Assembly (NCBI GenBank): GCA_028683385.1
Contig: JAQUIJ010000013.1
Location: forward strand, 1-64,000
Direction: 5' to 3'
Length of the DNA stretch: 64,000 nucleotides
Origin: Prolixibacteraceae bacterium
Lineage (GTDB): Bacteria; Bacteroidota; Bacteroidia; Bacteroidales; Prolixibacteraceae
Shown here: in pieces, positions 1,158-46,411 of the stretch
Layout: the number at the start of each line of letters is the position of its first letter
Numbering within the stretch: position 1 is the first letter of the stretch
The notes under the pieces: generated by a model
What the model saw: the letters and a program-made list of their open reading frames with translations, nothing else
The model's database searches: none
Told to the model about the DNA's origin: nothing
Program-made: the position numbers and the translations under genes

Positions 1158-2615
1158 TTAATTATTTCCGAATATCTCATTAATCACTTCTTTGTCGTCG
1201 AAATGATATTTCACTCCTTTTATTTCCTGATAATCTTCGTGACCTTTGCCAGCAACCAAAATAATGTCGCCAGGTTTTGCAAGCATGCAGGCTGTTTTGA
1301 TGGCTTCTTTGCGGTTCACAATCGTCAACACTTTGTTTTTCTGGTGAACTTCAACACCGGCTTCCATGTCGGCCAAAATCTGTTCAGGCTCTTCCGAACG
1401 CGGATTGTCTGATGTCAGGATTACTTTATCACTTTGGCGGACAGCTTCCTGAGCCATTTCGGGGCGTTTGGTTTTGTCGCGGTCGCCACCAGCGCCAACT
1501 ACTGTAATTACCTGTTCGTTTCCGGTCCGTATTTCTGCAATTCCGGATAGTACATTTTGGATAGCGTCAGGAGTATGCGCATAATCAACTACAGCATATT
1601 TTCCTTCCGGCGAACGAATAATTTCGAAACGACCTGAAACCGGACGCAATTCACTCAGAATCCGAAGTATCTCGTCGCGGTCAACGCCCAAAAGAATGGT
1701 GGCTCCCATAACAGCCATCAGGTTACTGGCATTGAAAACACCGGTAAAATGAGTCCAAACCTCCTGCCCATCAATACTCAGGAGCATTCCATCGAAATGC
1801 TTTTCGAGCACCTTGCAATGAAAGTTTGCCAACGACCGCAACGAATAAGTTTGCTTGGTCGCTTTCGTATTCTGAAGCATTACCATACCGTTTTTATCGT
1901 CGGCATTGGTTAAAGCAAATGCCTTTGCAGGAAGCTGATCGAAAAATTTCTTCTTCGCTTTCAGGTATTCAGCAAAAGTTTTGTGGTAATCCAGGTGATC
2001 GTGAGTCAGATTGGTAAAAATGCCTCCATCGAAATCAATCCCGCTAATCCGATCCTGATCGATGGCATGCGAACTAACCTCCATAAAGCAATATTCACAT
2101 CCGGCCTCAACCATTTTAGCCATCAATTCCTGAATCTGCAACGCATCAGGTGTGGTGTGCGTGGCATGAAACTCATCGTCGCCAACGTAATATTTTATGG
2201 TCGAAATTAATCCGACTTTATATCCAAGTAAACAGAAAGTCTTGTAAAGAAGGCTTGCAATCGTTGTCTTCCCATTGGTTCCGGTAACTCCAACAACCTT
2301 TAAGTTGGTCGATGGGTTATTGTAAAAGGCCGCGGCCATTTTCCCGAAATTGATTTGGGTATTTTCAATTTTTACCAACACTACTCCGGAAGGAAAATTT
2401 TCCGGAACATCCTCACAAACCACAGCTACAGCACCCAACTCTATCGCTTTGGCAATGTATTGATGACCATCAACATGAGTACCTTTTACAGCAACAAACA
2501 AATCGCCAGCTTCAACCTTTCGCGAATCGAACTGAATACTCCGAACCTGAACAGATAAATCTCCTCTGGTTTCGAGCAACCCTATGCCTGCAAGTATATC
2601 TTTTAACGGTTTCAT
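1158..2615 (-). CDS. murE: MurE, UDP-MurNAc-tripeptide synthetase (meso-DAP type)
   Basis: Cytoplasmic Mur ligase adding the third residue of the peptidoglycan stem peptide using ATP. The 485-residue length is normal. The ATP-binding loop GTNGKTT is at residues 112-118, the central-domain HTTPDAL stretch is near 153-159, and the C-terminal substrate motif DNPR is at 403-406. In characterised MurE enzymes DNPR selects meso-diaminopimelate rather than lysine, so a DAP-type wall is inferred. It starts 5 bp after the ftsI stop, so it is clearly cotranscribed. The DAP specificity matters for interpreting dapL and the DapF-like gene elsewhere in this window. Confidence 0.97.
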
Positions 2616-18999: not shown

Positions 19000-20229
19000 C
19001 TATTTCAGATTTTTAACCCGTTCCATGGCCTCCAACACATTGTCGCGATCGGCAAATGCTGAAAAGCGGAAATAGCCTTCGCCTGATGGTCCGAAGCCTG
19101 AGCCGGGAGTTCCAACCACATTGGCAACGTTCAGTAATTTGTCGAAGAAATCCCATGATTTCATGTTGTCCGGAGTTTTTACCCAAACGTAAGGAGCATT
19201 TACTCCGCCAAAAACGGTGAAGCCGGTTTCTTTCAGGCTCTCGCGCATGATTCGGGCGTTTTCGAGGTAATAGTTAATGACTTCTTTCACTTGTTTTTTA
19301 CCTTCTTCGGTATAAATAGCAGCAGCAGCTTTCTGCACCGGATACGAAACTCCGTTGAATTTGGTGGTATGGCGGCGATTCCACAAAGGTTTTACCGGAT
19401 GAGCTTTCCCCTCGCTGTCGTACGCTTTCAATTCCGATGGAATTACGGTGAATGCGCAACGCGTTCCGGTAAATCCGGCAGTTTTCGAGAAACTACGGAA
19501 TTCGAGAGCAACTTCTTTGGCGCCTTCAATTTCGAAGATCGAATGTGGGATAGATTCGTCGGTAATGAATGCTTCGTAAGCCGCATCGTACAGAATGACG
19601 CATTTGTTGGCACGTGCATAATTCACCCATTTAGTCAGTTCTTCTTTCGAAGCCACTGTTCCGGTAGGGTTATTTGGGAAGCACAGGAAAATCAAGTCGG
19701 GACGTTCGGTGGGCAGTTCAGGAATAAAACCGTTTGCCTCGTTACAAGGCATGTAAATAATTCCTTCAAAATATCCGTTCGGTTGAATTTCGCCGGTCTT
19801 GCCCGACATCACAGTAGTGTCGGCATAAACAGGATAAACCGGGTCGCAAATGGCAATTTTGTTACCGGCACCAAATACTTCCTGAATATTTCCAGTGTCG
19901 CATTTCGATCCGTCAGAAACGAAAATATCGTCAGCCGAAATATCGACACCGCGATTTTTATAATCGTTCAGGGCAATTGCTTCGCGCAAAAAATCATAGC
20001 CTTGTTCCGGGCCGTAACCTTTAAAAGTTGCAGCATTCGCCATGTCGTCAACACCCTCGTGAAAAGCCTTTACAACCTCCGGAACCAATGGTTGAGTAAC
20101 ATCGCCAATACCCATGCGGATCACCTTTTTATCCGGGTTGGCTTCAGCAAATTCGCGCACTCTTCGTCCAATTTCAGGGAACAAATACCCCGCCTGAAGC
20201 TTCAGGTAATTTTCATTAATTAATGCCAT
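19000..20229 (-). CDS. dapL: DapL, LL-diaminopimelate aminotransferase
   Basis: PLP enzyme converting tetrahydrodipicolinate directly to LL-diaminopimelate with glutamate as amino donor, bypassing the succinylase branch. It has 409 residues, as expected. Signatures include [11 protein letters not shown] near residue 40, [11 protein letters not shown] near 106, FPNNPTGTV near 186 and the PLP-lysine stretch [13 protein letters not shown] near 249. It stands alone as a single gene. The product needs epimerisation to meso-DAP for the DNPR-type MurE in this window, yet the DapF-like protein here lacks both catalytic cysteines. Confidence 0.97.
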
Positions 20230-44238: not shown

Positions 44239-45504
44239 CTAAACCTTGAAATCGCCCAATCCGCCAAAATCCAAAGTTGCAAAATAATCGTTGAGAGTTT
44301 CGGCACGGCGAATCTGTACAACTTCTCCGTTTTCGCGAATCAACAATTCGGCCGAGCGTAATTTTCCATTGTAGTTGAATCCCATGGCATGACCATGTGC
44401 TCCGGCATCGTGTATCACAACCAAATCGCCAGGTTCCATTTTGGGCAAGTGACGGTTAATGGCAAATTTATCGTTGTTTTCGCAAAGCGAGCCGGTTACA
44501 TCGTAAACCTGATCGAGTGGCTCGTATTCCTTGCCCATCACCGTAATGTGGTGGTACGACCCGTAAAGAGCCGGACGCATGAGGTTAGCCATACTCGAAT
44601 CAAGTCCGGCGTATTGCTTGTATGTTTTTTTAATGTGAAGTACCGTTGAAACCAAATACCCAAATGGACCGGTCATGGCTCTTCCCGATTCGAAATAAAC
44701 CCGTAGTGGGGCAAGTCCGTTGGCTTCAATCTTTTCCTGATACAACTTTTTAATTCCCTGGCTCATAAAATCCAAATCGACAGGTTCTTCAGTCGGACGA
44801 TATGGAATCCCGATACCTCCGCCAAGATTAGCGAATTCAATTTGAATACCAACTTTTTGTTTGATTTCCACGATTAAATCGAAAAGAATCTGAGCGGTCT
44901 CCACAAAGTAAGCTGCATCCAATTCGTTGGAAGCAACCATGGTATGAAGCCCAAAACGTGTTACACCTTTGTCTTTCAGCATTTGATAGCCTTCGAACAA
45001 TTGTTCGCGGGTAAAACCATATTTGGCTTCTTCCGGATGACCAATAATGGTATTTCCTTCTTTCAACGACCCCGGATTATAACGAAAGCAAACCAACGAA
45101 GGCAAACCAACATTTTTTTCGAGGTATTCGATGTGTGAAATATCATCGAGGTTAATGATTGCTCCTAGTTCAATGGCTTTTTTATATTCGTAGGCAGGGG
45201 TATCGTTTGATGTGAACATGATTTCGTCGCCCGACATGCCTAACTTTTCGGCAATCACTAATTCGGCATACGAACTGCAATCAATACCGAAGCCCTCTTC
45301 GCGCATGATTTTCATCAAATACGGGTTTGGAGCCGATTTGATGGCATAATATTCTTTGAATCCTGAGTTCCACGAAAATGCCTTGGTGAATTTCCGGGCG
45401 TATTCACGTATTCCTTTCTCATCGTAAATATGAAAAGGAGTTGGATATTGCTCAATGATTTTTTCGAGCTGCGGTTTAGAAAATGGAATGTATTTCTTTG
45501 TCAT
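44239..45504 (-). CDS. LysA-family PLP decarboxylase, atypical
   Basis: Fold-type III PLP enzyme of 421 residues. The PLP lysine is Lys56 in YYAIKSAPNP, GGG is at 228-230, and the C-terminal active-site cysteine is Cys341 in GSLCENNDKFA. Two motifs differ from ordinary diaminopimelate decarboxylase: the usual HxHIGSQ loop reads HTMVASNEL (187-195), and EPGR reads ESGR (272-275). These changes lie around the phosphate and substrate sites. The gene follows a DapF-like gene by 40 bp, in one transcript. It may be a DAP decarboxylase variant or act on another D- or meso-amino acid; annotation as lysA alone would be too firm. Confidence 0.75.
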   Translation of the reverse strand: MTKKYIPFSKPQLEKIIEQYPTPFHIYDEKGIREYARKFTKAFSWNSGFKEYYAIKSAPNPYLMKIMREEGFGIDCSSYAELVIAEKLGMSGDEIMFTSNDTPAYEYKKAIELGAIINLDDISHIEYLEKNVGLPSLVCFRYNPGSLKEGNTIIGHPEEAKYGFTREQLFEGYQMLKDKGVTRFGLHTMVASNELDAAYFVETAQILFDLIVEIKQKVGIQIEFANLGGGIGIPYRPTEEPVDLDFMSQGIKKLYQEKIEANGLAPLRVYFESGRAMTGPFGYLVSTVLHIKKTYKQYAGLDSSMANLMRPALYGSYHHITVMGKEYEPLDQVYDVTGSLCENNDKFAINRHLPKMEPGDLVVIHDAGAHGHAMGFNYNGKLRSAELLIRENGEVVQIRRAETLNDYFATLDFGGLGDFKV

Positions 45505-45544: not shown

Positions 45545-46411
45545 TTACAAACAAAGTACATCTGCAACCAATTCATCACTTAAATAGCCTGAAGCAATTT
45601 CGCGAACGTCACCAATCATGCGGATATTCCATTCTTCATCAATTTCAATGTGAAGAGTTCCTCCGGGCATTTTCATGCTTAATACCCGATCTGTCAATCC
45701 TTTTTTAACCATTACGGCAGCAACGGCGCAAGAGGAACTTCCGGAGGCCAGTGTATAACCGGCACCACGCTCCCAAATTAGGATTTCCACTTCGGTACGT
45801 GAAGTTACTTTAGCAAACTGAACATTAATTCGATGCGGAAACATGGGATGATTCTCAATTTCTGAACCATGTTTCAGTATTTCTGCTTCAACTAGTCGAT
45901 CGCGAAGAATAACACAATGCGGATTCCCAACTGACACACAGTTAATCAGATATGTTTCGTCAACAATATTCAGCGGATGATCCAGACATTCTGGCGAATC
46001 GCAAGTAACCGGAATCTGGTGCGAATCGAAAATGGCTTTTCCCATATCAACTTTCACCTGACTGGCAATTCCCTTGGTTTCGCGGGTTACTTCAGCGGTT
46101 ACGACACCTCCAAGCGTTTCGATTGTAAATTTTTTGCCTGAAGTATGACTATAATCGTACAGGTATTTCGCGAAAATGCGCAATCCGTTACCACTTTTTT
46201 CGGCTTCCGATCCATCCGGATTGTATATTTTCAAACCAAAGTCTGCTTTATCGGAAGGCACTTTCAGGAGAATTCCATCTGATCCGATTCCATAGTGGAC
46301 ATCGCAGAGCAACTGGATATTTTTTTCATTCAACTGAAAGGAAAGTTCAGCCTCGTTCAAAACAAAATAGTCGTTTCCGAGCCCGTGTGATTTGACAAAA
46401 AAGTTTTGCAT
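45545..46411 (-). CDS. DapF-family protein with both catalytic cysteines replaced by serine
   Basis: Protein of 288 residues with the diaminopimelate epimerase fold. The N-terminal VKSHGLGNDYFVLNE, the central SVGNPHCVIL near 160-169 and the C-terminal IWERGAGYTLAS are all family landmarks. The first catalytic cysteine (C in CGNG) is Ser73 in EKSGNGLRIF. The second (C in ACGTGA) is Ser223 in LASGSSSCA. The codons are clear in the sequence (AGT and TCC). Without the cysteine pair the standard two-base racemisation is not expected, so it may be an isomerase of different chemistry, a binding protein, or a slow epimerase. It has its own promoter box and leads the LysA-like gene. Confidence 0.8.
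   Translation of the reverse strand: MQNFFVKSHGLGNDYFVLNEAELSFQLNEKNIQLLCDVHYGIGSDGILLKVPSDKADFGLKIYNPDGSEAEKSGNGLRIFAKYLYDYSHTSGKKFTIETLGGVVTAEVTRETKGIASQVKVDMGKAIFDSHQIPVTCDSPECLDHPLNIVDETYLINCVSVGNPHCVILRDRLVEAEILKHGSEIENHPMFPHRINVQFAKVTSRTEVEILIWERGAGYTLASGSSSCAVAAVMVKKGLTDRVLSMKMPGGTLHIEIDEEWNIRMIGDVREIASGYLSDELVADVLCL

Follow-up and report, generated by a model that had tools for sequence, protein, structure and literature searches.

The subject of this analysis is a dapF-like gene at positions 45545..46411 (minus strand) of a 64,000-nucleotide stretch of DNA, the window, from a Prolixibacteraceae bacterium (contig JAQUIJ010000013.1); its product of 288 amino acids has serine in place of both catalytic cysteines of diaminopimelate (DAP) epimerase. 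The gene probably encodes the organism's working DAP epimerase, a thiol-free enzyme that would use Ser73 and Ser223 as its acid/base pair and would have replaced the cysteine enzyme. A broader proposal is favored with a little more reserve: that this is a natural Ser/Ser epimerase (perhaps assisted by Lys72) that evolved stepwise, from Cys/Cys through Cys/Ser to Ser/Ser, and that in five phyla or more now stands in place of the two-cysteine DapF or beside it. In most of its hosts, which include many relatives of this bacterium and some distant bacteria of hot springs, the serine variant most probably serves as the DAP epimerase.

The frame on the minus strand runs to 288 codons and a stop, with no internal stops. 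Its first catalytic site reads GSEAEKSGNGLR (E-K-S73-G-N-G) and its second ERGAGYTLASGSSSCA (L-A-S223-G-S-S-S-C-A): CGNG has become SGNG, with Ser73 encoded by AGT at 46193..46195, and ACGTG has become ASGSS, with Ser223 encoded by TCC at 45743..45745 (both minus strand). A HMMER alignment places the two serines on the CGNG and ACGTG cysteines of the solved Anabaena DapF 9MRO, whose catalytic residues are given in excerpts of PMC12039745 as Cys75 and Cys224. A preceding interpretation of this DNA from its letters alone (the sequence-only reading) had located Ser73 and Ser223 at these sites, without stating the strand, and open reading frame, alignment and codons bear it out; its claim that the fold is conserved outside the catalytic sites holds as well. 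The protein scores 238.9 bits with the NCBIfam DapF model TIGR00652, far over the cut-off of 114.65, which makes it a member by score and the remainder of the protein clearly DapF; Pfam PF01678 (DAP_epimerase) also matches it as a full-length DapF. (TIGR00652 is matched by 12 of 12 members of group A1; the comparison with the cut-off is given for the window protein alone.) The protein belongs to DapF by its predicted fold and fails to present the cysteines of CGNG and ACGTG; with Ser73 and Ser223 it is therefore not a classical two-cysteine DapF. The side chains that contact DAP (Asn13, Asn64, Asn163, Asn196, Glu214 and Arg215) are all in place. The last five are invariant in the 129 Ser/Ser proteins described below; Asn13 is found in 128, with a gap in the other one.

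Is the double exchange an error of sequencing, or the mark of a pseudogene? Both are ruled out: the two serines are present in 20 of 20 Ser-type loci fetched from further genomes in the genus, as well as in a wider clade. Both also stand in the Ser-type loci from nine further genera of this family, and a scan of the genome collection gave 581 confirmed relatives, the best 80 of which (80 loci) are labeled as Bacteroidota, Aquificota, Bacillota, Spirochaetota and Ignavibacteriota: five phyla. All fetches together yielded 206 distinct DapF-like proteins, of which 129 are Ser/Ser, 71 Cys/Cys and 2 Cys/Ser; two more are partial and have Ser at their first site, and the last two are CarB-fused domains that read Ser/Ala and Phe/Cys. 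The clade was delimited by score, not by motif, as the full-length proteins with at least 330 bits against a Ser-type profile (no proteins score between 250 and 330 bits); its 131 distinct members are the 129 Ser/Ser proteins and, as a sister group, the two Cys/Ser proteins. Ser73 is encoded by AGC or AGT in 129 of 129 Ser/Ser proteins, and Ser223 by TCN in every one; each is a single base away from a Cys codon, and the codon family has never been switched, which fits a single origin for each Cys-to-Ser change, followed by strict retention.

The residue adjoining Ser73 is clade-specific: position 72 (codon at 46196..46198, minus strand, in the window) is Lys in 128 of the 129 Ser/Ser proteins (Ile in the remaining one), Asn in the two Cys/Ser proteins and Met in 70 of the 71 Cys/Cys proteins. 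Residue 226 is invariably Ser in the Ser/Ser set (129/129) versus Gly in the Cys/Cys set (71/71), and Ser225 stands where the Cys/Cys proteins that were read have Thr. (A technical note: the Cys/Cys rows are poorly aligned at residues 158-166, and nothing is drawn for them there.) The evidence supports a paired substitution that is real, has been kept by selection and marks a separate clade spread over five phyla. The sequence-only reading had spoken of selected new chemistry rather than decay: selection over decay stands, given a clade of this breadth. The distribution of the two forms points to replacement with retention of function, though the chemistry on that same substrate may be new. 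No prevalence is drawn from a DNA pattern census of 395 Bacteroidota genomes with a degenerate E-K-x-G-N-G-L pattern: 27 matched and the backward control matched 25, and 12 of the 28 pattern-matched places read Ser, several others reading Thr, Arg or Cys.

In a second tree, from which the catalytic columns were removed, a branch (bootstrap 99, SH-aLRT 91) separates the 29 Ser/Ser rows from the rest. They form one clade with living INTERMEDIATES: the Cys/Ser proteins at loci L033 and L159 (NCGNG and ASGSSS) are sister to the Ser/Ser rows. The joint Ser/Ser and Cys/Ser group is supported at 100/100, and its stem measures 1.17 changes per column (the bootstrap of this tree not being fully settled, at a correlation of 0.985); the first, larger tree of 78 rows gives the same picture (89, SH-aLRT only). 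The order of change, as inferred, would run from Cys/Cys to Cys/Ser and on to Ser/Ser with Lys72. Members from Aquificota, Bacillota and Spirochaetota are nested among Bacteroidota in the 78-row tree, which makes transfer of the Ser-type dapF between phyla likely. The genome of one Cys/Ser protein (G183) has a single DapF gene, an LL-DAP aminotransferase (DapL) over cut-off, and no meso-DAP dehydrogenase (Ddh).

The near-exclusive and mostly single-copy distribution of the Ser/Ser and Cys/Cys forms points to replacement of one enzyme by another with the same function. Each of the 61 genomes searched in the Sulfurihydrogenibium order (Aquificota) has one DapF gene (split over two contigs in G638), Ser/Ser in 27 and Cys/Cys in 34; none has both and none has neither. 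An exclusive single-copy distribution of this kind is what interchangeable enzymes with one function would give. Within the window's family 140 genomes were searched, 130 had a match, and 98 were read: 72 have Ser/Ser only, 20 Cys/Cys only, 5 both, and 1 a partial protein with Ser at site 1. Of 28 genomes that hold further loci of the clade, 24 have a single PF01678 gene, of Ser/Ser type in 23 and of Cys/Ser type in G183; the remaining four are all clostridial. The window's own genus includes one genome (G020, locus L043) with a Cys/Cys DapF only (CGNA/ACGTG), no Ser/Ser form having been found in it.

The genome from which the window comes (5.9 Mb; completeness 100%, contamination 3.58) has no second dapF at the sensitivity of PF01678, its two matches being halves of the Ser-type gene, and no Ddh over the cut-off of 180.6 (the best match reaches 28.6 bits over 87 positions). 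The Ser-type protein is thus its sole DapF, accompanied by dapL and a DAP-type murE. The sequence-only reading had regarded the protein as unlikely to be an epimerase, had supposed that the organism needs another, and had named the absence of any other dapF as something that would tell against this view. That absence is what is found at Pfam sensitivity, and with a single gene of the DAP_epimerase family and no Ddh over cut-off neither supposition is supported. Ddh is also rejected as a general source of meso-DAP: it is absent, over cut-off, from 21 of the 23 Ser/Ser-only genomes searched. (Among 29 genomes it passes the cut-off in three, the clostridial G178 and the Ser-only G175 and G176.)

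In the proposed scheme, DapL would supply LL-DAP, the Ser-type enzyme would invert one end of it, and the resulting meso-DAP would go to MurE for the cell wall and to LysA for lysine. Ser73 and Ser223 would occupy the places of the two catalytic cysteines; the substrate would probably be held as in ordinary DapF, by Asn13, Asn64, Asn163, Asn196, Glu214 and Arg215, with its proximal carboxylate surrounded by the N-termini of helices 2 and 4. Lys72, and Ser226 with its additional hydroxyl, might lower the pKa of a serine or relay a proton. One can infer DAP as the substrate, the serines as catalytic groups, and a part for Lys72 and Ser226.

The genes for the flanking steps are in the window, as the sequence-only reading had stated: dapL, for the step preceding the epimerase, lies at 19000..20229 (minus strand; TIGR03542, 631.1 bits, cut-off 364.7), ~25 kb from dapF, and murE of the DAP-adding type, a user of meso-DAP, at 1158..2615 (minus strand; NF001126, 633.3 bits, cut-off 373). 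Forty bases downstream of dapF is a gene (44239..45504, minus strand) for a LysA-like pyridoxal phosphate (PLP)-dependent decarboxylase of 421 amino acids, which scores 289.1-289.5 bits with TIGR01048 (cut-off 297.9). Conservation of this neighbor had been put forward as a check: a LysA-like gene lies downstream in 21 of 21 genus loci, in 8 of 9 loci that represent further genera in the family, and, within the genome collection, in 37 of the best 80 of the 581 relatives (some of these loci end at contig ends). The protein reads CENND at a position where the canonical LysA motif is, presumably, CESGD, and a related type co-occurs with Ser-type DapF in Bacteroidota and some Clostridia. It is the best of three LysA-profile matches in its genome, none of which passes the cut-off. 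In D. orientale (G168), where the best match has 290.7 bits and the next 97.8, the sub-cut-off type may be the real LysA. LysA-profile matches are found in 27 of 28 genomes, over cut-off in 20.

An aminotransferase cluster near the Ser gene emerged from clustering in 15 of 33 loci; since it is not limited to DapL, the DapL profile was used instead. DapL is over cut-off in 19 of 31 genomes; in 12 of these (G164-G168, G175, G176, G181, G184, G186, G189 and G191) less than 3 kb separates it from the clade DapF gene. Six Ser-only Aquificota genomes have no DapL over cut-off and have LysA at 520-566 bits; the Ser form is thus independent of this type of DapL and of the LysA-like variant. Around the clostridial Ser gene no shared theme was seen by reading the neighbors, with no family-library comparison made. 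DapF domains also occur in composite frames. L167 (G185:C120:8000-18000) and L168 (G187:C53:12000-22000) have frames of 1359 and 1354 amino acids that resemble carbamoyl-phosphate synthase large subunit and carry a C-terminal DapF domain, degenerate at the catalytic positions (Ser/Ala and Phe/Cys); dapL adjoins the CarB-DapF fusion in G187. In Ruminiclostridium cellobioparum subsp. termitidis (L149:3371-4855) the Ser-type DapF frame extends over 495 amino acids from stop to stop with an apparent N-terminal GNAT acetyltransferase, which is either a fusion or an accident of frame.

A number of observations weigh against a serine-based epimerase. Single Cys-to-Ser mutants of PddB keep <0.1% activity, the same is reported for mutants of M. 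tuberculosis DapF (both according to excerpts of PMC8225329), and Cys-to-Ser mutants of HisR are described as greatly reduced (PMC11602996, in part). Both forms of DapF occur in 5 of the 98 family genomes. (Genomes of the window's genus with both are G003, G006, G008, G014 and G017, loci L040, L041, L039, L044 and L042; their Cys copies read CGNA, and are either real or assembly contamination, at 2-6%.) The clostridial G178, G180, G185 and G187 hold the Ser gene as an extra beside a Cys/Cys DapF, and its role in such hosts is less clear; in G178 dapL adjoins the Cys/Cys gene instead. Two Ser-only genomes, G175 and G176, have Ddh; the LysA-like protein next to the window's gene falls just below the LysA cut-off; and a non-homologous epimerase, or an Asp/Glu-type racemase of the RacX/YgeA kind, may serve instead.

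Has the Ser-type protein, then, lost epimerase activity and taken on another substrate or role, and does meso-DAP come from a non-homologous epimerase that has escaped recognition, for example a PLP-dependent DapF2 resembling the alanine racemase Alr? This is improbable, for all that the near inactivity of relatives' mutants (PMC8225329, PMC11602996) and the additional copies in four clostridial genomes would suit it, as would the proposal, in the available part of PMC9026213, of a PLP-type DapF2 for Staphylococcus genomes without dapF. Each of the same six Ser-only Aquificota genomes has exactly one Alr-family match, presumably needed for D-alanine, which leaves no obvious room for an Alr-like DapF2 (G177, a seventh Aquificota genome, has no Alr match and is probably incomplete); the exclusive single-copy replacement over 61 genomes, the conserved DAP-contacting residues and the dapL and lysA neighbors also speak for the DAP epimerase. 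A spare DapF2 is less clearly excluded in the window's own genome, which has a weak second Alr-family match (34.2 bits, cut-off 168) beside a full one of 304.1 bits. (Bacteroidota Alr matches, e.g. G000:C23:370288-371367, lie in frames of ~820-890 amino acids, consistent with a MurF-Alr fusion, for which NCBIfam model NF008897 exists.) Less probable still is a DAP epimerase whose main base is not serine, Lys72 or a serine-held water taking the proton on one face. The near-invariance of Lys72 in the Ser/Ser proteins, set against Asn in the Cys/Ser and Met in nearly all Cys/Cys proteins, is in keeping with this, and lysine is one base of other two-base racemases, mandelate racemase for example (PMC8142540, excerpts, where M. 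tuberculosis DapF is listed with a kcat of 0.15 per second). One Ser/Ser protein nevertheless has Ile72, and no similar gain of a basic residue was noticed around Ser223 at the positions compared. E. coli DapF stimulates the RNA pyrophosphohydrolase RppH, and the solved RppH-DapF complexes (6d13, 6vck) match the model; a non-catalytic role of this kind, binding and stimulating RppH, is nonetheless very hard to credit, leaving unexplained as it does the invariant substrate-binding side chains, the dapL and lysA neighbors and a sole copy without Ddh.

No description of a natural Ser/Ser DapF was found in the open-licence literature, a scope beyond which lie most subscription papers and all preprints. 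Cofactor-independent racemases use a weak thiolate to abstract a proton whose pKa lies near 29; how they do so has long been a puzzle, and the available sections of PMC12039745 put the thiol/thiolate pair at the heart of it. If the serine-based epimerase is real, two catalytic cysteines held to be essential are replaceable by serines, a textbook rule is broken, and a cysteine thiolate is unnecessary for cofactor-independent epimerisation; one can think of the two-hydroxyl clade as a natural experiment whose Cys/Ser relatives are still alive. Such an enzyme would be expected to withstand oxidation of thiols and inhibitors aimed at them. A disulfide that joins the two catalytic cysteines reportedly inactivates the Cys DapF of C. 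glutamicum (PMC5296763, excerpts), and it is a speculation by analogy that peroxide resistance might be the advantage of the Ser type. The Aquificota members (Sulfurihydrogenibium, Persephonella), being thermophiles, should suit crystallography. A protein that passes the NCBI DapF model, as this one does, would be named DapF with no mention of its lost cysteines.

Among known systems the closest is DapF itself (TIGR00652/PF01678; 9MRO, 8QZY, 4IJZ, 1GQZ), which shares with the Ser type its fold, length, helix-capping catalytic positions, DAP-contacting residues and pathway context, and differs in having Cys/Cys with Met, Thr and Gly in place of Ser/Ser with Lys72, Ser225 and Ser226. The proline racemase superfamily, of the same fold, offers serine at the first site in a Ser/Cys 4-hydroxyproline 2-epimerase and a Ser/Thr trans-3-hydroxyproline dehydratase (both as presented in excerpts of PMC4113996); the former acts on another substrate and keeps one cysteine, while the latter, also with another substrate, is a dehydratase and not an epimerase. 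Laboratory mutants of H. influenzae DapF (C73S and C217S; 2q9h, 2q9j), HisR (C67S, C209S) and PddB (C101S, C233S) make the same exchange at the same positions, but as single changes in sites adapted to cysteine, whereas the natural clade has changed both sites and their surroundings. The Staphylococcus DapF2 (PMC9026213, in part) is likewise a proposed replacement of the cysteine DapF, built on an unrelated PLP fold, whereas the Ser type keeps the fold of DapF.
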